A stretch of 7,432 bases of DNA from Myxococcota bacterium (GTDB taxonomy: Bacteria; Myxococcota_C; UBA6777): positions 1-7,432 of the forward strand of contig JAKLKB010000196.1 in assembly GCA_023150835.1 (NCBI GenBank), in the 5' to 3' direction. Below, piece by piece: positions 1 through 7,432 of the stretch. Each line of letters starts with the position of its first letter. Position 1 is the first letter of the stretch. The position numbers were made by a program, and so were the translations under genes. Under the pieces are notes generated by a model. It did not search any database. It was not told the origin of the DNA and worked only from the letters and a program-made list of their open reading frames with translations.

Positions 1-300
1 TCACCGCAAGTCACCCCCCCCAAAAAGCAAACCCCTTGTGCGAACAACGAAGTCTTCTTGATCACCGTCCCGCGCCTCTCTCTCAGAAGGAGAGAGATCT
101 CACCAAGCAACGCTTGCCGCGCCGAAGCCAACGGCTACTGCATTCGATCAAACACCAAAGAAGTCGCTCTCGAACGAGAAGGTTATCTCACCTGCATCTT
201 CGCCCTCCCCAAGCGCCAAACACGCCTACGCGCTGTTTTAAAAGAAGATGAAGGCGGCACCCCACCCAACCAAGATTATTGCTTGCAAAAACGAAAATAG
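1..300 (+). CDS. C-terminal part of an unrecognised cysteine-containing protein (5' end outside window)
   Basis: The frame starting at base 1 is open for 99 codons and ends at TAG (298-300); the true start lies upstream of the window. I do not recognise the protein. The visible part has five cysteines (fragment residues 13, 39, 47, 65 and 94) in a basic, otherwise hydrophilic chain with no membrane segment. This would suit a secreted disulphide-bonded protein like the cysteine-rich products further right, but I see no shared motif such as the C-x5-CC found there. An eight-C run (14-21) lies in the coding strand, and the stretch around fragment residues 29-32 uses AGA/AGG codons, which may mark a less conserved part. 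The gene converges on the 343-residue gene, with 25 bp between the two stops and no clear terminator between them. A chance open frame cannot be excluded without the upstream sequence. Confidence 0.5.
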   Translation, partial: SPQVTPPKKQTPCANNEVFLITVPRLSLRRREISPSNACRAEANGYCIRSNTKEVALEREGYLTCIFALPKRQTRLRAVLKEDEGGTPPNQDYCLQKRK

Positions 301-325: not shown

Positions 326-1357
326 TTAAAACGAAGGCGCTGTGTACAGGCGTTGCGCAGGCAAAGCGTTTGAGGAAGCCAACGGAAACGGCGAAGAGAC
401 CGGCCCTTGTGATGCTGTCTTGTTGGGCGATTCCGCTTTCTTTTGGGGCGCGGCCAAGCGAAACCACAAGATCCCCCCTCCGATCATCACCGCCCCCAAA
501 GCCAACCCGATCACTCCCGCATTGAAAGAAAGGTTCGCGTCTCGCTTGAGATCCGCAAACAGCGTTGCTCTCGCAGCGTTCACCGAAAAACGATCTGCAA
601 ACAGCCCATCCAGATCCTTTTCGATGTTTTTTGATACGAACACAAACGTGACCCCCCCGCCCAACACCGCGATCCCTAGGCCAATTACGACGGCTCCCCC
701 GATCTGCCCTCCTGTCAAGCCTTGCTTGTACGGGCCTTTTCCCATCGTTGCCGCCTCAAACAACCGCGTTTCTCGCTCACCCAACGTCACTTCCGCATAC
801 TGCGTTGCTTGCTTTGGATACGTCACTCGCACCTGATACACCCCGGGACGAAGTCGGAGATTCTCTTGCCCTGACAGCGACACTTCGCGCTCGAACTGGT
901 AGCCTTTGATCTCCACACGCGCCGTCTCTGCGAGGCTGTTGGTCAACGTCAACGTCCCATAACCGATCTTTGTGTCCAGATCGAACAACATCCCCTTGAT
1001 CGCTTGGCAGCGATACGCTTTGACACAAAGGCGTTCTTGTAGATAAACGCGCAAGGGCCCAGCGGCTTTTTCGTAGTAATAACGCTGCTCTTGCGCCTCT
1101 TTTTGCGCAGCCGCGTATCTTTGGTAGGCTTTCGCGGCGTTTTCGAGAAAAAGTCCTTTGCGCTTCTTTTGCAGATCGTCCAGCTTGTCGGGAGTCGCCA
1201 TCTTCGCAGCGATCTGCGTATAACACTCTGCAGCAAGCTTGTGCTGTTCTTGGCGAAAAAGCTGCGCACACGTCGACGAAGGATCGTTGGCATACCCAAC
1301 CAACGGAACCATCAGGGAAAAAAAGCTCCAAACGCAGACAAAACAGGCATAACGCAT
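326..1357 (-). CDS. Secreted protein with helical N-terminal part, PEGA-like beta domain and two membrane segments (paralogue of 2592-3716)
   Basis: The 343-residue protein starts at ATG 1357, with GAGGAG (1366-1371) eight bases upstream. Residues 1-23 form a signal peptide with likely cleavage after GYA. Residues 27-105 are helical and Ala/Lys/Gln-rich, resembling a degenerate TPR or coiled segment around LFLENAAKAY (69-78). Residues 110-195 contain LCVKAYRC, then a beta-rich part with VEIKGYQFE and LRPGVYQVRVTY, resembling PEGA surface-layer-type domains. Glycine-rich hydrophobic segments at about 219-241 and 278-299 are probable membrane helices around a short polar loop. A Ser/Pro/Ala-rich tail follows. 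After signal cleavage both ends would lie outside the inner membrane. Residues 110-192 align without gaps to residues 139-221 of the 374-residue protein, with 36 of 83 positions identical by my hand count. Cysteines 30, 45, 111 and 117 are shared and could form two disulphides. The function is unknown. I see no convincing promoter in the repeat-rich upstream spacer. Confidence 0.88.
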   Translation of the reverse strand: MRYACFVCVWSFFSLMVPLVGYANDPSSTCAQLFRQEQHKLAAECYTQIAAKMATPDKLDDLQKKRKGLFLENAAKAYQRYAAAQKEAQEQRYYYEKAAGPLRVYLQERLCVKAYRCQAIKGMLFDLDTKIGYGTLTLTNSLAETARVEIKGYQFEREVSLSGQENLRLRPGVYQVRVTYPKQATQYAEVTLGERETRLFEAATMGKGPYKQGLTGGQIGGAVVIGLGIAVLGGGVTFVFVSKNIEKDLDGLFADRFSVNAARATLFADLKRDANLSFNAGVIGLALGAVMIGGGILWFRLAAPQKKAESPNKTASQGPVSSPFPLASSNALPAQRLYTAPSF

Positions 1358-1365
1358 CGCAAAAA

Positions 1366-1371
1366 CTCCTC
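1366..1371 (-). promoter_or_regulatory. Shine-Dalgarno site of the 343-residue gene
   Basis: The minus strand reads GAGGAG eight bases before the ATG at 1357. It is a near-perfect match at good spacing and supports this start. Confidence 0.75.
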
Positions 1372-1416
1372 AGAAAAAACAACTCCGCACAGGAGTGACG
1401 CAGTTCGGTTTGTTTG

Positions 1417-1431
1417 TGGGGCGCTGCCCCA
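1417..1431. repeat. GC-rich palindrome, copy 1
   Basis: TGGGGCGCTGCCCCA forms a 6-bp stem around GCT. The same 15 bases recur at 1667-1681. Palindromes of this kind are familiar as dispersed intergenic repeats in many proteobacterial and myxobacterial genomes. No T-run follows on either strand, so it is not an obvious terminator. Confidence 0.6.
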
Positions 1432-1502
1432 TACGCGCCTTGTTAAGGTGGAAACCTCGTAGAGTCGGTCTTGATCGCCTTTTTTTTCTCCCCCCCCTCA
1501 AT

Positions 1503-1520
1503 CCCCCCGTGAACGGGGGG
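1503..1520. repeat. C6/G6 hairpin, orientation A
   Basis: CCCCCC-GTGAAC-GGGGGG can fold into a 7-bp stem with a TGAA tetraloop. It is preceded by an eight-T run (1480-1487) and an eight-C run (1490-1497). Its reverse complement shares the GTTCACGGGGG core with the hairpin at 1605-1628, so the two are inverted copies of one repeat type. Confidence 0.55.
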
Positions 1521-1604
1521 AAGTTGGAACGGGCAGCGTCTGCGTCTCGTGCATACAGCGTGCGTCATGAAAAAACAAAATCCCCGATGCTTCCGACTTT
1601 CGCT

Positions 1605-1628
1605 CCCTCCCCTGTTCACGGGGGAGGG
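1605..1628. repeat. CCCTCCCC/GGGGAGGG hairpin, orientation B
   Basis: CCCTCCCCTG pairs with CGGGGGAGGG (one T-G wobble) around a TTCA loop. It is followed by a G-rich tail to 1640. It is the inverted counterpart of the 1503-1520 hairpin, and such elements commonly occur in multiple copies between genes. Confidence 0.55.
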
Positions 1629-1666
1629 CGGGGTGGGGGGCTTTCCTCCGCTTCACCTAACGCCTA

Positions 1667-1709
1667 TGGGGCGCTGCCCCATGCCCCGCAAGGGAGCTTT
1701 GCCCCCTTG
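1667..1709. repeat. GC-rich palindrome copy 2 with adjoining hairpin
   Basis: The first part (1667-1681) repeats the 15-bp palindrome of 1417-1431. A second hairpin follows at 1689-1709: CAAGGGAGC pairs with GCCCCCTTG around TTT, with one A/C mismatch. The composite is typical of a dispersed intergenic repeat rather than a gene. Confidence 0.55.
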
Positions 1710-1807
1710 ACCCCGTGTCGGCGGAACGAGCAGACGTTTTTCAAACCAACGACTCCATCGCGAGGAGGGACGCGAACACGGGGGGTTTTGCCGAGCGCGT
1801 CACTCCT

Positions 1808-1837
1808 ATCCAAAAAAGCAAAATCCAAAAAAGCAAA
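1808..1837. repeat. 15-bp tandem duplication
   Basis: ATCCAAAAAAGCAAA occurs twice in direct succession (1808-1822 and 1823-1837), perfectly conserved. It immediately adjoins the right arm of the 11-bp inverted repeat. Slippage is the likely origin. Confidence 0.8.
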
Positions 1838-1844
1838 AAATGCT
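1827..1844 (-). terminator. Weak candidate terminator of the three-gene minus-strand operon
   Basis: About 50 bases after the TGA at 1893, the minus strand can fold AGCA-TTTTT-TGCT (1844-1832) and then continues with a T-run (1831-1827). The stem is only 4 bp and AT-rich, so efficiency is doubtful. It is the only T-tailed hairpin I see downstream of the operon. Confidence 0.25.
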
Positions 1845-1892
1845 CGCGCAAACGCTGGCAAGAAATTTTTCTCGCTACAGCGCAACTTCCGT

Positions 1893-2573
1893 TCAAGGAG
1901 ATCGATCGCAAGAAAGAAGTGTGTAATCTCTTTCGAGGCATCTCTTTTGGCCGCCCAACTTCGAACCGCAACAATACCAAGAGCTGGGGCACTCCGAACT
2001 CGTGGTGCATAATTTCAATCCACCGCAAGCAAGAAAATTTGCCGAATCAGAGCATGCACCATCACAACAAAACTCTGTGGTGCGACACGACGGAGCGCAG
2101 ACTTTCACCTCTGGGGCTGGCTCGGGTAGGTTCTCTGGCCCCGAAGTCTCCTCGGCCCCGTCGGGCGGAGAGATATTTTCGGGTTGTGCGGGTTCTTCGG
2201 AGGAAGTGGGTTCGTTGGATGGTTCGGGAGTTCCTTCGGTTTGGGACTCGCCGGAGGAACCGCATTGGCTAGAAGGGCGGCAATAACGCACCGCAGGATC
2301 GGCGTTGGGGGGGGGATTTGGAACGCAACAGACATCTCCCCCCGAGCATTGGGCGTTCTCCACACAAGCCCCGCAACGACCGCCCCGACAAGGCTTCCCA
2401 CCACACTCTTGGGATGTTTCAGTCTCTTTGGAGCAACGAAACCCGATCAAACCCTCGTATTCTTTGATACAATTTTGCTGAAACAAAAGAATCGAGGCCA
2501 TCGCAAGAAACAAAGGAAAAAAGCGAAGATACGTTTTCATGCTGTGCCGATCTAAGTGAAGAAAAGGTGCCAT
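1893..2573 (-). CDS. Cysteine-rich envelope protein with two cysteine clusters joined by an acidic Ser/Pro/Glu linker
   Basis: The 226-residue protein starts at ATG 2573, with GAGG (2581-2584) seven bases upstream. A second ATG at 2540 gives a neater signal sequence but has no visible ribosome binding site. Residues 13-34 form an export or anchor segment ending before C35. The box FQQNC is not a canonical lipobox, so lipidation is uncertain. Residues 47-104 and 159-222 are cysteine clusters, each with a C-x5-CC motif (C76/C82-C83 and C195/C201-C202) also found in the 410-residue product. Residues 105-157 are a Ser/Pro/Glu/Thr-rich, cysteine-free linker, probably extended. There are 23 cysteines from C35 onwards. 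The gene lies 18 bp after the 374-residue gene and is probably translationally coupled to it. The coding strand has a nine-C run (2307-2315) encoding PPP. The function is unknown; a surface or periplasmic structural or binding role is inferred. Confidence 0.85.
   Translation of the reverse strand: MAPFLHLDRHSMKTYLRFFPLFLAMASILLFQQNCIKEYEGLIGFRCSKETETSQECGGKPCRGGRCGACVENAQCSGGDVCCVPNPPPNADPAVRYCRPSSQCGSSGESQTEGTPEPSNEPTSSEEPAQPENISPPDGAEETSGPENLPEPAPEVKVCAPSCRTTEFCCDGACSDSANFLACGGLKLCTTSSECPSSWYCCGSKLGGQKRCLERDYTLLSCDRSP
2307..2315 (-). repeat. C9 homopolymer tract inside a coding region
   Basis: Nine G on the plus strand read as nine C in the coding strand of the 226-residue gene, spelling three proline codons (residues 87-89). 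A single-base slip would shift frame before the second cysteine cluster. It could be a phase-variation tract or a sequencing-error hot spot. Confidence 0.85.
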
Positions 2574-2580
2574 TTCAAAG

Positions 2581-2584
2581 CCTC
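2581..2584 (-). promoter_or_regulatory. Shine-Dalgarno core that decides the start of the 226-residue gene
   Basis: The minus strand reads GAGGCGAGG with its proximal GAGG seven bases before the ATG at 2573. It falls between the stop of the previous gene (2592) and this start. The internal ATG at 2540 has no such site, so I chose the longer form. Confidence 0.65.
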
Positions 2585-2591
2585 GCCTCGG

Positions 2592-3716
2592 TCAATCGCC
2601 GATCTGGAGCAAGGTATGTCCTTGCAAAGAAGGTGTTGCTGCGAACAGATGCGGTGGTGCGGCAGGTGGTGTGTTTGCGATGCTTTGTCCTGCTGCGGGT
2701 TTGCGCGGAAGAAACATCCAGACCAAACCACCGATCACAGCGGCCCCACCGATGCCCACCGCGATCCAACCGATCACACGGAGAGGTTGGGTGGTGTCCA
2801 AGATATCGTTGGCGCGTCGCAATCCCTCGACAGCAGCGACATAATTCGCATCCGTTAAGTTTCCATCGCGTGCGTCTTTGGCGTAGGTTTCGAGCCTTGC
2901 GTAATTAGCCCGATCAATTGCAGCGATACGGATCGCCAAAGACGTCGCACCAATCGCTACAAACGCAGCCCCCGCCCCTGTCAACAACCAAGCTCCCGTA
3001 GGGATCGGAACGCCCACAGGAGCCGTGTAGACGAGCTGATCTTTTCGTGGCTCCAAGGTCATCTGGATCGTGCGCGAAGCTTGGCCCGCATACGTCGCAC
3101 GAAAAGCATACACCCCGGGTCGCAACGCTCCCGCCCATCGTTCGGCGATCTGGAGTTTGTTTTCATACTGATAACCACGAATCTCGACTTCCACAGGCTC
3201 TTTTCGCGGGTTAAGCAGCGTGACGTTGTTGTAGCCGGTTTCCTGCTGGACTTGGTAGAGCAAGCCTTGGATGCTTTTGCAGCGGTAGACTTTGACACAG
3301 AGTTTTTCTGAAAGAATTTGTCGCAGATAATTACCAGAAAGCTCAAACAAATAAGCGCGCTCTTCGAGCTTGGTGGAGCGACTGGCGGCTTGTTCGTAAG
3401 ACTTGGCAGCATTTTCGAGCAGGAGTGCCTTTTGCTTTCGATCGATGGGGCTGGACTGTGGCATCAGTTTGATCTGCTCGGCCACGCGGACATAACAATC
3501 GGCAGCGAGGCGAGGAGCTTGCTTGAGCAAAGCATGACAGGCTTTGGCATCAAGCGACTGGGCCGAAGCATCCGCCCAAAAGCCGATGACGCCTCCCACA
3601 AAAGCCAAAACCGTCCAGACAACACGAGAAAGCCGATGCGAACAAAGATGACGCCAAGACAGGGATGGCCGATATCTGGATTTGTTGTGTGGCGTCAAGC
3701 AGCGGCGGATGGGCAT
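2592..3716 (-). CDS. Secreted protein with helical N-terminal part, PEGA-like beta domain and two membrane segments (paralogue of 326-1357)
   Basis: The 374-residue protein starts at ATG 3716, with AAAGGG (3726-3731) nine bases upstream, 36 bp after the 410-residue gene. A long basic n-region (1-31) precedes a hydrophobic core (32-48) and likely cleavage after ASA (50-52). Residues 55-130 are helical and contain AADCY and LLLENAAKSY (98-107). Residues 139-221 carry LCVKVYRC, VEIRGYQYE and LRPGVYAFRATY, the region that matches the 343-residue paralogue without gaps. Membrane segments lie at about 242-264 and 314-336, around a roughly 50-residue polar loop (about 265-313). The tail is Pro/Ala-rich. 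Cysteines 60, 74, 140 and 146 correspond to C30, C45, C111 and C117 of the paralogue. TPR-like plus PEGA-like plus transmembrane architecture is common in myxobacterial-type envelope proteins, but no reaction or partner can be assigned. A role with the neighbouring cysteine-rich proteins is inferred from the operon. Confidence 0.88.
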   Translation of the reverse strand: MPIRRCLTPHNKSRYRPSLSWRHLCSHRLSRVVWTVLAFVGGVIGFWADASAQSLDAKACHALLKQAPRLAADCYVRVAEQIKLMPQSSPIDRKQKALLLENAAKSYEQAASRSTKLEERAYLFELSGNYLRQILSEKLCVKVYRCKSIQGLLYQVQQETGYNNVTLLNPRKEPVEVEIRGYQYENKLQIAERWAGALRPGVYAFRATYAGQASRTIQMTLEPRKDQLVYTAPVGVPIPTGAWLLTGAGAAFVAIGATSLAIRIAAIDRANYARLETYAKDARDGNLTDANYVAAVEGLRRANDILDTTQPLRVIGWIAVGIGGAAVIGGLVWMFLPRKPAAGQSIANTPPAAPPHLFAATPSLQGHTLLQIGD

Positions 3717-3752
3717 GGTGGACGACCCTTTCTGAGAAGAGAAAGACAGACC

Positions 3753-4985
3753 TCAAGGACAAGTATCAGCACAAAACAGATAGATCCCTTTTCGACAACA
3801 ACGCAGTCCTTGTGGGCAATCTGGATCGGCTTTACAAGAGCAACGAAATTCCTCTTTGCCTTGGGTTTCGATATTGATGCAGGCTTCGTTGATTTTTCCG
3901 CAACAATAGAAGTTCCCGGGGATCGAGCAATCAAGGTTGGTGGTGGGCTTGGAACAAGAACCTGCGCAGTCTTTGGAGTCCTTGACATCGGCGCTACAGA
4001 ATTTATTTCCAAGAGAGCTTGGACAACAAAAGGTATTTTGTGGGCAATCGGTATCTTGATCACACGAACAACGCTTGATCTGTTTGCCGAAAAAGAAGTT
4101 AAAGGCACGAAATTCATTGCACGAGCCTCGACCTGTGGGCGTGCAGCAATATGGGTTGGCGGTGCAATCTTGGCGGGTTTTGTCGGCAAGCGTGCAGAAG
4201 TTGCGGGCGTTGGCGCATTTGCCTTGTTCGTCAGGGATGGCGCAAAAATAGCGGGAGTTGGCGAGTTTTTGAGGATCGGTGGGACAACAAACCATGCCAT
4301 TCGGGCAATCGCTTGACAACACACAAGAACAGCGTTTGCGGGGTTTTCCTTCGATGCTGAATTCTTGGCAGCTTCCGTTGGTTTGGTAGATCGAGCAGCA
4401 ATAATTGTTTGCGGGATCGTGGCAATCGAGTTTGGTATCAGGATCGTCGCCTGTTTTGATCTCAGGGGCTTTGCAAGTTGCGGTCGGAGCGGGGCATTGG
4501 TTGTCTGCGGTGGGCAGCGTACAAGTGAGGAAGCCTTTGTCGGGAGACTTTGGGTTGAGTTCGCAACACTTCATCGGTTTGGGGCAATCGAGATCACTTT
4601 TGCAAAGGCACCGTCCTTCGGGGGGAGAGAGATCATAGCGAACAGCATAACATCCGCGAGTGGGAAAATCGGCGGACTGAAAGACGCAACAGTAGTTGTT
4701 TTTGTGGAGGAAACAATTTTGGCTTTCAGAGGCTTTGGGAGCCGCACAGATCTGAGCCAAGCCAAAGGGGGTTTGGGGTTCGTTGGGTCGGCTACATTGT
4801 CGATTGAGACACTTGAGTCCGCCCCCACAGTCCTTGTCGATCTCGCACAAAAGCCCGAGATGAGGGGGAGTATCGCAAGCGAGAACCAAACAGCCGAGCA
4901 GCGCGACACTCAACATCAACAAGATTGCGGATGTTCGGGAGAGACGAACGCGAGAAGAAGTCGGAAACACAACACCACAAGCCAT
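3753..4985 (-). CDS. Lipoprotein with four tandem 12-cysteine modules
   Basis: The 410-residue protein starts at ATG 4985, with AAAGGA (4993-4998) seven bases upstream. Residues 18-36 are the hydrophobic core of a lipoprotein signal. C37 (box VLAC) is the likelier lipidated residue and C32 (LLGC) an alternative. After C37 comes Asp, which in enterobacteria favours inner-membrane retention. A short cluster (C47, C53, C59, C64) is followed by four modules at about 80-164, 171-257, 264-340 and 344-409. Each module has twelve cysteines in the same order: C, C, YCC, C, C-x-C, DC, CC, C, C. The core of each repeat is CxC-x4-DCP-x4-CC (CLCKSDLDCP, CSCVLSSDCP, CSCDQDTDCP, CSCKADPDCP). This core resembles the second half of eukaryotic WAP four-disulphide domains, but that link is unproven. 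It is the first gene of a probable three-gene operon. No catalytic motif is seen; a rigid extracytoplasmic binding or structural protein is the best guess. Confidence 0.9.
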   Translation of the reverse strand: MACGVVFPTSSRVRLSRTSAILLMLSVALLGCLVLACDTPPHLGLLCEIDKDCGGGLKCLNRQCSRPNEPQTPFGLAQICAAPKASESQNCFLHKNNYCCVFQSADFPTRGCYAVRYDLSPPEGRCLCKSDLDCPKPMKCCELNPKSPDKGFLTCTLPTADNQCPAPTATCKAPEIKTGDDPDTKLDCHDPANNYCCSIYQTNGSCQEFSIEGKPRKRCSCVLSSDCPNGMVCCPTDPQKLANSRYFCAIPDEQGKCANARNFCTLADKTRQDCTANPYCCTPTGRGSCNEFRAFNFFFGKQIKRCSCDQDTDCPQNTFCCPSSLGNKFCSADVKDSKDCAGSCSKPTTNLDCSIPGNFYCCGKINEACINIETQGKEEFRCSCKADPDCPQGLRCCRKGIYLFCADTCP

Positions 4986-5186: not shown

Positions 5187-7145
5187 TTGAAGCGATGGTG
5201 GATGATCGGCGCGGTGGTGTCGTGGTGGACGGTGGGATGTTGGAGCGGCTGCCAGCAAGTGGAAACGCCCAAGACACGGGTATATTCGGAGCAACGAGAG
5301 CCTTGTGCGGAGTATAGCAGCGAGCGCAAAGCGTATTATGGCGATCTGCATGTACACACGGGATATTCGTTTGATTCGTGGGCGTATGCTTCGCAACTCA
5401 CATCGCTGGATGCGTACCGTTTTGCGAGCGGAGAACAAGTCTCGTTGCCGCCGCTTGGAGCGGATGGAAAAGGCACACGTCCTGTCAAGCTCAAGCAGCC
5501 GTTGGACTTTGTTGCGATCACCGAACACTCGGAATATCTCGGAGAGATCGCGCTTTGTACGACGCCGGGTTCCAAAAGCTACGAGTCTACGCCTTGTCAA
5601 AGCTACCGTAAACGCAACGAACAAAGCACCTTTCAGTTTGGGATCGGGCTGATCTATGACAATCCTGTCCGAAGCAAGGAGATCTGCGGCGAAGATCTTT
5701 CGTGGTGCAGAGAGGCTGCGCTTGAGCGATGGCGCAAGATGCAAGAAGCAGCAGAGTTGACCTACGATCGCAAGTCGACTTGTCGGTTTGTCGCGTTTGT
5801 GGGCTACGAATACACCGCAACACCCGCCGTAAGCAACATGCACCGCAATGTGATCTTTCGCAATGAACACGTCACGCCGCTGCCGATCACGTATTACGAA
5901 CAGCCGAATCCTTGGGGGTTATGGAAAGCTTTGAAAGAAGAGTGTATCGATAAAGGCGGTGGCTGCGATGTATTCTCGATCGGCCACAACTCGAACCTCA
6001 GCAATGGACATTATTTTGCGACCAAATACCCCAAAGCCAACAGCCTCGAAGAGCAAGCCAAGATGGCGGCTCTACGGGCGCAGATGGAGCCTCTTGTCGA
6101 GATGTTCCAGCACAAGGGCGATATGGAGTGCCGCAACGGGATGTTTGGTGTGTTCGGAGATCCCGATCCGTTCTGCGATTTTGAAAAGCTGCGCCCTGCG
6201 GAAACCAAAGATTGCAAAGGCACCTTTACAGAAGCGAACGCAGGCGGGATGCGTGTACAAGGGTGTGTTTCGCATCTTGACTTTGTGCGCAACGCGCTGA
6301 AGGCAGGGCTCCAAGAACACCAGCGGCTGGGCGTCAATCCCTATACCTTCGGACTGATCGGATCGACCGACACACACAACGGAACGGCAGGTCTCGTACA
6401 AGAAGTCGACTTTCCCGGTCACGTCGGAACGGTGGACGACGAGCCGATCAAGCGCCTTGGTTCGGGGAATATCACCCACGACGGGATCATCAACAACCCG
6501 GGAGGACTCGCCGCAGTTTGGGCCGAAGAACGCTCTCGGGATTCGATCTTCGACGCTTTGCGCCGCCGCGAAACCTTTGCAACGAGCGGCCCACGGATCC
6601 AAGTTCGTTTCTTCGGTGGGTGGGGCTTTTCGGATGGGATGTGCAAAGAAGAAGGTTGGATCAAAAAAGCCTACGCAACAGGGGTTTCGATGGGCGGGAT
6701 CTTGCCCAAAGCACCGACCGACGCAAAAGCACCGCGTTTTGTGGTGATGGCGACAGCAGACAAAGGAAGTCCCGAAGCACCCGGGATGATGCTGCAACGT
6801 GTACAGATCATCAAGGGATGGGTGGGGGCGGATGGAAAGCCATACGAAAAAGTCTATGAAGCCGCAGGCGACCCAAACAACGGCGCGAGTGTGGACGTGA
6901 AGACGTGTAAAAGCAGCGGAGACGGCAAGGAGAGCTTGTGCGCGGTATGGAGTGATCCTGCGTTTGAACCGACACAGCGGGCTTTTTATTACGCTCGTGC
7001 GCTCGAAAACCCAAGCTGTCGGTGGAGTACTCGACAATGTATCGCTCTTGCCCCCGACAAGCGGCCCGCCTCTTGCGAGACCTCACACGTCCAAAAGATC
7101 ATCCAAGAACGCGCATGGACCTCGCCGATCTGGTATCAACCTTAA
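5187..7145 (+). CDS. DUF3604 family protein, PHP-like metal site, probable lipoprotein
   Basis: The 652-residue protein starts at TTG 5187 and ends at TAA 7143-7145. That length is about what I recall for the DUF3604 family (PF12228), which has no established reaction. Residues 1-22 form a lipoprotein-type signal with basic KRWW, a hydrophobic core, and C22 (SGC) or C18 (VGC) as candidate lipidation sites. Family hallmarks are GDLHVHTGYSFD (52-63), DFVAITEHSEY (107-117), the IGHNSNLSNG stretch (266-274), FQHKGDME (307-314), GSTDTHNG (392-399), RRETFATSGPRI (460-471) and the terminal ERAWTSPIWY (641-650). H55, H57, E113, H114, H267, H309, D395 and H397 are plausible metal ligands, as in PHP-type hydrolases, by inference. 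Twenty cysteines are unusual for a hydrolase of this size and suit an oxidising compartment. It is divergent from the cysteine-rich operon; a shared role is possible but unproven. The frame is intact and looks functional. Confidence 0.93.
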   Translation: MKRWWMIGAVVSWWTVGCWSGCQQVETPKTRVYSEQREPCAEYSSERKAYYGDLHVHTGYSFDSWAYASQLTSLDAYRFASGEQVSLPPLGADGKGTRPVKLKQPLDFVAITEHSEYLGEIALCTTPGSKSYESTPCQSYRKRNEQSTFQFGIGLIYDNPVRSKEICGEDLSWCREAALERWRKMQEAAELTYDRKSTCRFVAFVGYEYTATPAVSNMHRNVIFRNEHVTPLPITYYEQPNPWGLWKALKEECIDKGGGCDVFSIGHNSNLSNGHYFATKYPKANSLEEQAKMAALRAQMEPLVEMFQHKGDMECRNGMFGVFGDPDPFCDFEKLRPAETKDCKGTFTEANAGGMRVQGCVSHLDFVRNALKAGLQEHQRLGVNPYTFGLIGSTDTHNGTAGLVQEVDFPGHVGTVDDEPIKRLGSGNITHDGIINNPGGLAAVWAEERSRDSIFDALRRRETFATSGPRIQVRFFGGWGFSDGMCKEEGWIKKAYATGVSMGGILPKAPTDAKAPRFVVMATADKGSPEAPGMMLQRVQIIKGWVGADGKPYEKVYEAAGDPNNGASVDVKTCKSSGDGKESLCAVWSDPAFEPTQRAFYYARALENPSCRWSTRQCIALAPDKRPASCETSHVQKIIQERAWTSPIWYQP

Positions 7146-7148
7146 ACC

Positions 7149-7432
7149 GTAAACGCCCGATGGTCGGGCAGCCACAGGGGGCTGCCCCTACATGGCCCGA
7201 TCACATAACGGGCGGATCTCGGATTAGTTTGTGTAAACGCCCGATGGTCGGGCAGCCACAGGGGGCTGCCCCTACATGGTTCGACCACATAACGGACGGA
7301 TCTCGGATTAGTTTGTGTAAACGCCTGATGGTCGGGCAGCCACAGGGGGCTGCCCCTACATGGTTCGACCACATAACGGGCGGATCTCGGATTAGTTTGT
7401 GTAAACGCCCGATGGTCGGGCAGCCACAGGGG
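7149..7432. repeat. 84-bp tandem repeat, about 3.4 copies, continuing past the window
   Basis: Units start at 7149, 7233, 7317 and 7401, each with GTAAACGCC, giving an exact 84-base period; the last unit is cut at 32 bases. Copies differ at only a few positions: CCCGAT versus TTCGAC after CATGG, one G/A in ACGGGCGG, and CCC/CCT near the start of unit 3. Each unit holds two overlapping hairpins, GCCCGA-TGG-TCGGGC and GGGCAGCC-ACAGGG-GGCTGCCC, which compete for the same GGGC. The array starts four bases after the DUF3604 stop. There are no unique spacers, so it is not CRISPR. The minus strand is open through it only because 84 is a multiple of three. Confidence 0.92.
7154..7188. other. Overlapping hairpins of the first 84-bp unit, possible transcript-end structure for the DUF3604 gene
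   Basis: The first hairpin begins about ten bases after the TAA at 7143-7145. It could protect or end the mRNA, but no T-run follows, so a classical intrinsic terminator is not supported. Confidence 0.3.

Follow-up and report, generated by a model that had tools for sequence, protein, structure and literature searches.

Do four alternating envelope genes on a short Myxococcota contig represent a duplicated two-gene cassette, or are they parts of a different kind of system? The window analysed here is an entire contig of 7432 bp, and the gene cluster therefore continues beyond its end. On its minus strand, genes for cysteine-rich proteins alternate with genes for proteins carrying two transmembrane segments (2-TM proteins), as described in the initial annotation, which read them as an old duplication of a pair. 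We suggest that the locus probably encodes the accessory, or co-receptor, parts of a membrane kinase-signalling cassette, because genes of the 2-TM family usually adjoin a kinase, a cysteine-rich lipoprotein, or both.

Gene content and arrangement of the locus

All four genes were recovered as open reading frames (Table 1). A block of cysteine-rich, 2-TM and cysteine-rich genes is followed by a second, detached 2-TM gene and by a convergent kinase gene. The alternation of gene types is unevenly spaced, since the intergenic gaps measure 36 bp (P0004/P0003), 18 bp (P0003/P0002) and 535 bp (P0002/P0001).

Table 1. Features of the window, in transcription order for the four complete genes.
Feature	Coordinates	Strand	Remarks
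Cys-rich lipoprotein 1 (P0004)	3753..4985	-	410 aa, 55 Cys
2-TM protein A (P0003)	2592..3716	-	374 aa; start 36 bp past P0004
Cys-rich protein 2 (P0002)	1893..2573	-	226 aa, 23 Cys; start 18 bp past P0003
2-TM protein B (P0001)	326..1357	-	343 aa; P0003 paralogue
Transmembrane Ser/Thr kinase C-terminus	1..300	+	99 aa; kinase-family HMM and ectodomain profile
Dispersed GC-rich repeat	1393..1781		between P0002 and P0001
Terminator-like hairpin with T-run, weak	1382..1396	-	between repeat and P0001

The widest gap contains a repeat found in at least 40 places in its own genome, together with an IS-like end and the terminator-like hairpin. Such hairpin sites are no more numerous than expected by chance, and the stem is also present in the sister locus (L110). 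P0001 is likely to form a separate transcription unit. Two duplicated pairs are a doubtful reading of the locus: the 226-aa gene is spaced as the downstream partner of the 374-aa gene, and the 343-aa gene is preceded by the long gap with its repeat and weak hairpin. Further, a shared origin of the cysteine-rich proteins could not be demonstrated. In the family tree, the only clade uniting the 343- and 374-aa proteins is weakly supported (83/60), and members from other cassettes fall within it. The genome-wide repeat, the contig ending and the kinase C-terminus had all been missed in the initial annotation.

By comparison with the sister genome, all four genes are real and under purifying selection (dN/dS of 0.05 for P0004, 0.16 for P0003, 0.30 for P0002 and 0.16 for P0001). 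P0004 and P0002 are 97% and 81% identical to their sister proteins, which retain 54 of 55 and 23 of 23 cysteines, respectively. The sister genome also carries a complete kinase gene and a third cysteine-rich/2-TM pair.

A lineage-expanded family of 2-TM proteins

The proposed paralogy of the two 2-TM proteins is confirmed by alignment (33% identity over 289 residues, E=1e-43), and each has two strong hydrophobic segments at its C-terminal side. Judged by sequence, they belong to a lineage-expanded family, whose full-length members number at least 60 across the five genomes available for the lineage. Members share a signal peptide, putative TPR-like helices, a PEGA/transthyretin-like sandwich and a transmembrane hairpin. 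The paralogues are highly divergent. The deep alignment offered no stretch of sufficient conservation for finding related loci; a search with a narrower alignment returned the sister MAG only, and a plasmid search gave no match.

In P0003, the TPR-like helices carry the invariant C60 and C74, a cysteine pair conserved in the family. This N-terminal part is modelled as five helices (pLDDT ~80) and resembles TPR-type chains, among them one from the PpiD-YfgM complex and the LapB TPR domain, at VIA Z 10-12, values easily reached by helical folds. The middle domain has a near-invariant RPGxY motif and six predicted strands, those of P0003 spanning E163-E221 (pLDDT ~75), and its profile matches a carboxypeptidase N chain (E=2.4e-4). 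It is predicted to be a PEGA/transthyretin-like beta sandwich, likening it to PEGA (PF08308) and CarboxypepD_reg (PF13620). The earlier suggestion of a PEGA-like domain consequently holds at the level of fold, although the Pfam PEGA model itself did not match P0001 or P0003 at E<=1. Within the family, CarboxypepD_reg matched 12 of 38 members and PEGA three of 38, weakly (best E=0.0045). A further difference from both Pfam families lies in the N-terminal Cys-pair helical domain and the hairpin, neither of which corresponds to any Pfam family.

Structure predictions used shallow alignments of the window and related-locus sequences, and the transmembrane region was modelled with low confidence (pLDDT <50). 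The hairpin could lie in either orientation, since the positive-inside charge bias (loop -1.6, flanks ~+2) fits poorly with the arrangement that a signal peptide would impose. Foldseek returned only sub-threshold matches for P0003; one candidate, a chain of the RtkS-PpkA complex (E=0.46), was not counted as evidence. Searches of Pfam, NCBIfam, PADLOC, Rfam and the PDB gave no name for the 2-TM proteins or the cysteine-rich proteins of the window, in keeping with the earlier remark that the system was unrecognised: the 2-TM protein falls into no named, curated family.

The cysteine-rich proteins

P0004 has a lipobox at C37 (LVLAC followed by DTPP, or by DTPS in the sister), a pattern that marks it as a predicted bacterial lipoprotein. 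An N-terminal 4-Cys module precedes four tandem repeats of ~70-90 aa with the pattern C...YCC...C...CxCx5DCPx5CC...C (repeat model, pLDDT 70). Their resemblance to WAP domains is weak (nawaprin, E=0.1) and the pattern only suggestive; the Pfam search of P0004 gave no WAP (PF00095) match, and Foldseek found nothing for the repeat at E<=0.001. The lipobox of P0002 is poor (FQQNC in the window, LQQNC in the sister). Alignment of P0004 with P0002 pairs scattered cysteines only (single-comparison E=0.002), and the two are not demonstrably homologous. Among rejected candidates, a PADLOC Cas11 match on P0002 (E=5e-4) was read as an artefact of cysteine composition, a Pfam PARP match on the same protein as low complexity, and PADLOC kinase matches as generic kinase domains.

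Lipoproteins of other cassettes contain MopE (PF11617) and Stig1 (PF04885) modules, whereas P0004 and P0002 have no significant match to MopE, Stig1 or WAP. MopE-type modules occur both as fusions to cassette kinases (~10) and in separate lipoproteins next to 2-TM genes (L084, L106, L061), which provides a gene-fusion argument.

Association with transmembrane kinases

The fragment at the left edge of the window is the end of a transmembrane Hanks-type Ser/Thr kinase. It matches the kinase-family HMM and the ectodomain profile (E=2.8e-18), and represents the 4-Cys PEGA-like ectodomain of a gene cut by the contig end, 25 bp from P0001. Its intact sister orthologue (L110:1209-3215, minus strand) matches Pkinase at E=1.5e-42, with a single predicted transmembrane segment before the ectodomain.

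Neighbours were counted at 53 non-redundant 2-TM loci, using all open reading frames with a lipobox rule because a gene caller based on codon usage overlooked the short cysteine-rich gene P0002. A transmembrane Ser/Thr kinase adjoins 29 of the 53 members, in 22 cases directly upstream on the same strand, and a cysteine-rich lipoprotein adjoins 22, against ~4 expected. Both adjacencies exceed background. If 3.5% of genes are kinases, at least 20 members directly downstream of one would arise with a probability of ~5e-16; background regions contained 6 kinases in the 400 kb examined. The same regions yielded 14 cysteine-rich lipoprotein hits, about half of them apparently spurious frames, making the background estimate conservative. 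At L053 and L063, an apparent cysteine-rich upstream frame was in each case discarded as a false, overlapping one. Neither partner adjoins 14 of the 53 members.

The commonest neighbour is therefore the kinase, and not the cysteine-rich gene as first expected. Indeed, 31 of the 53 homologues lack an adjacent cysteine-rich gene, which by numbers is the outcome that the initial annotation named as refuting its reading, yet the lipoprotein stands as a recurring neighbour well above background. Conversely, the 4-Cys ectodomain was found in 56 open reading frames in five genomes, each with at least 139 kinase domains, and 44 of these have a 2-TM gene no more than 3.5 kb away. On this evidence, 2-TM genes are strongly linked both to kinases with 4-Cys PEGA-like ectodomains and to cysteine-rich lipoproteins. 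The orders seen include kinase, 2-TM, lipoprotein; lipoprotein, kinase, 2-TM; and lipoprotein, 2-TM. In a second phylum, the PEGA and hairpin half occurs in 87 of 187 genomes, and a kinase lies directly upstream at 16 of 40 loci and adjacent at 23.

A candidate co-receptor system and its alternatives

We propose that the 2-TM protein lies next to the kinase in the inner membrane, and that its periplasmic TPR and PEGA part would dock, as a co-receptor, on the PEGA-like ectodomain. The lipid-anchored, disulfide-rich protein could act as an exchangeable sensor or binder of something in the envelope. Binding would then shift the dimerisation or activity of the kinase, and hence cytoplasmic phosphorylation. 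Several tandem cassettes would supply one kinase with alternative inputs. More tentatively, and as a possibility that falls somewhat short of probable, this may be a cross-phylum receptor design, in which an expanded set of Ser/Thr kinases is paired one-to-one with dedicated TPR-PEGA-TM-hairpin co-receptors and with interchangeable ligand-binding lipoproteins, some fused into the ectodomain. Such a design would be previously undescribed; literature searches on PEGA with kinases or in Myxococcota yielded no description of it.

The closest parallel is PpkA with its periplasmic activators, TagQRST in Pseudomonas and RtkS in Serratia (PMC6082577). There, proteins from separate genes, either periplasmic or membrane-associated, control the periplasmic domain of a Ser/Thr kinase that spans the membrane; here, gene linkage points to partners of that kind. 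TagQ is a lipoprotein, extending the likeness to TagQRST. PpkA differs in its type VI secretion setting, and the window contains no TagR, TagQ, RtkS or type VI secretion genes; the present partners are a TPR-PEGA-hairpin protein and cysteine-rich lipoproteins in many paralogous cassettes. Both kinase and 2-TM protein carry PEGA-like domains. The kinase numbers of this lineage recall the myxobacterial expansion of eukaryotic-like kinases, with 99 in M. xanthus and 317 in S. cellulosum (PMC2887360, whose text makes no mention of PEGA or cysteine); the pairing of 4-Cys ectodomain and 2-TM protein is added here. Myxobacteria-like genomes encode from ~100 to several hundred Ser/Thr kinases. A partner gene, a dedicated 4-Cys ectodomain and a recurring lipoprotein provide concrete candidate input modules for a subset of them, and the linkage predicts which kinase matches which membrane and surface protein.

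Could the kinases be incidental neighbours in a kinase-rich genome, with the lipoprotein and 2-TM protein forming a two-component envelope system of their own? The tightest spacing in the window is that of the cysteine-rich/2-TM/cysteine-rich block, the genes of the third pair in the sister are 7 bp apart, and ~10 members have a cysteine-rich neighbour but no kinase. We nevertheless consider this unlikely, given that 22 members lie directly downstream of a kinase when no more than a few genes in a hundred encode one, and that the link recurs in a second phylum and involves a dedicated ectodomain. Single members adjoin penicillin amidase, amidohydrolase or PNGase F-like genes, and the 2-TM protein may accordingly have a broader adaptor role in the envelope. 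By extension, hairpin-anchored TPR and PEGA-like domains might tether the cell wall or various exported proteins, such as kinase ectodomains, lipoproteins and hydrolases, with signalling as only one use, and the PpiD-YfgM and LapB resemblances would suit such a scaffold. This seems quite improbable as the main role, for kinases and lipoproteins recur many times independently and the hydrolases do not.

It is very improbable that these are loose clusters of fast-evolving surface genes, brought together by tandem duplication and repeat-driven rearrangement without joint function. The repeat and IS-like end between P0002 and P0001 and the divergence of the paralogues are what such clusters would show, but ordered same-strand cassettes with gaps of ~0-130 bp turn up repeatedly, both across divergent genomes and in the second phylum, and purifying selection is strong. 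The co-receptor reading remains the one we prefer. The kinase gene of the window itself counts against it, being convergent with P0001 and not co-operonic.

Genes of the cluster

Four minus-strand reading frames, two encoding Cys-rich proteins (P0004, P0002) and two encoding 2-TM proteins (P0003, P0001), were found in the window as the initial annotation described, and the kinship it saw between the 2-TM proteins holds at 33% identity across 289 aa. Cysteines are nearly all kept between the window proteins and their orthologues in the sister genome used for comparison, Myxococcota bacterium isolate KLAP109 (G001). To judge from this conservation and from the identities and dN/dS values tabulated below, P0001–P0004 are genuine genes under constraint. 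Comparison of P0002 with P0004 revealed no demonstrable homology.

Gaps of 36 bp (P0004/P0003) and 18 bp (P0003/P0002) contrast with 535 bp between P0002 and P0001, where a dispersed repeat and a weak terminator-like hairpin lie. The repeat also occurs in KLAP109, with no match in the sampled loci of three more distant genomes. In the two species, different mobile sequences seem to have affected the gap after P0002. Because of the gap sizes, the repeat, the hairpin and the transposase-like end in KLAP109, P0004, P0003 and P0002 appear to form a single operon, with P0001 a separate unit, instead of the two alternating pairs originally proposed.

The window spans its whole contig; how the contigs join up is inferred, not assembled. 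In KLAP109 (L058), a long minus-strand ORF occupies the position of the DUF3604 gene.

Features of the cluster and of related loci (L-numbers)
Feature	Location	Strand	Remarks
Ser/Thr kinase C-terminus	window 1-300	+	matches profile of kinases adjoining other 2-TM family members; dedicated ectodomain profile E=2.8e-18
P0001, 2-TM	window 326-1357	-	92% identity to G001; dN/dS 0.16
Dispersed GC-rich repeat, ~390 bp	window 1393-1781		40 or more sites in window's genome; contains strong hairpins
P0002, Cys-rich	window 1893-2573	-	81%; 0.30
P0003, 2-TM	window 2592-3716	-	93%; 0.16
P0004, Cys-rich lipoprotein	window 3753-4985	-	97%; 0.05
DUF3604 protein, 652 aa	window 5187-7145	+	E=1e-169; divergently upstream of cassette
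84-bp tandem array	window 7149-7432		contig end; 3.4 copies, 96% match; includes GGGCAGCCACAGGGGGCTGCCC-type inverted repeats
Intact orthologue of window kinase	L110:1209-3215 (KLAP109)	-	Pkinase E=1.5e-42; convergent with P0001 orthologue
Third Cys-rich gene	L110:3450-4328 (KLAP109)		divergent from kinase
Third 2-TM gene	L110:4336-5343 (KLAP109)		7 bp after third Cys-rich gene
Same third pair, window's own genome	L049:250-1227 and 1274-2305		start of contig C216
Transposase-like gene end	L109:11816-11955 (KLAP109)	-	directly after P0002 orthologue; by reading of sequence
1384-aa lipoprotein-like protein	L051:7176-11330		171 cysteines, 20 Stig1 repeats; adjoins 2-TM gene

The 2-TM family

An iterative profile search of 61 sequences (60 loci and the window) yielded 64 members, of which 60 cover the whole N-terminal domain; C60, C74, G181, RPG(199-201) and G249 are conserved. 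AlphaFold, given five sequences, predicted five N-terminal helices (pLDDT ~80) and a six-strand sandwich (~75), and modelled the TM hairpin poorly. The N-terminal region is similar to TPR domains (VIA Z 10-12, under the specificity level for helical matches), and a profile of the sandwich picked up a carboxypeptidase N chain (E=2.4e-4). Among 381 genomes outside the family there was no full-length match; the PEGA and hairpin half was matched in 87 of 187 genomes of one phylum (that of G251).

The signal peptide and cysteine pairs argue for a periplasmic N-domain. In the family alignment, hairpin loops have a mean charge of -1.6 and both flanks about +2, the reverse of the positive-inside rule under the topology that the signal peptide implies.

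Kinase and lipoprotein neighbours

Neighbours were counted for 53 members, after seven G001 orthologues were dropped. A kinase gene is adjacent in 29, and in 22 of these it immediately precedes the member on the same strand; a Cys-rich lipoprotein (CysLP)-like gene lies beside the member or its adjacent kinase in 22. Twelve have both and 14 neither. Background regions from G000, G003 and G004 (20 of 20 kb, 400 kb in total) held 6 kinases; Cys-rich lipoprotein-like ORFs numbered 14, ~4% of genes. The Cys-rich neighbour foreseen in the initial annotation is thus enriched (22 of 53 against ~4 expected), yet absent from most members. Gene order is kinase-2TM-CysLP in L052, L061, L070, L073, L085 and L087, CysLP-kinase-2TM in L080 and L082, and CysLP-2TM in the window, L049/L059, L078, L084, L089 and L106. 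Among 40 loci of the second phylum, that of G251, which are best matches and not a random sample, 23 have an adjacent kinase; in 16 a same-strand kinase sits immediately upstream.

The adjoining kinases have in common an extracytoplasmic C-terminal domain that contains invariant cysteines. Its profile found 56 ORFs in G000-G004, the five genomes by which their phylum was represented, all of one family, with at least 139 Ser/Thr kinase domains each. Of the 56, 44 have a 2-TM gene within 3.5 kb. Since the profile was built from 2-TM-adjacent kinases, this tests coverage, not discovery; the scarcity of the ectodomain outside cassettes is nonetheless informative.

Architecture is conserved, the genes are linked and both partners carry PEGA-like domains. 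The 2-TM protein may be a kinase co-receptor or stabiliser, and the lipoprotein the variable sensing part. Among characterised systems the closest analogy is PpkA, controlled via its periplasmic domain by TagQRST or RtkS (PMC6082577), a likeness in working, not membership. Each component (PEGA domain, transmembrane kinase, Cys-rich lipoprotein) is known individually; no description of their combination appeared in the literature searched, which left most subscription journals outside.

Cys-rich partners

Within P0004 are four internal repeats, seen among sampled loci only in its orthologue and, as a weak match, in L089. The partner slot looks exchangeable, because other cassettes have different Cys-rich types (MopE, Stig1, NHL+MopE). 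About ten ectodomain kinases carry an extra MopE-like Cys-rich module, also present in stand-alone lipoproteins adjoining 2-TM genes (L084, L106, L061). Many partners show a short N-terminal pattern following the lipid cysteine, C-x4-5-[DH]C-...-C, which was rejected as a cassette marker because Cys-rich lipoproteins distant from any 2-TM gene share it.
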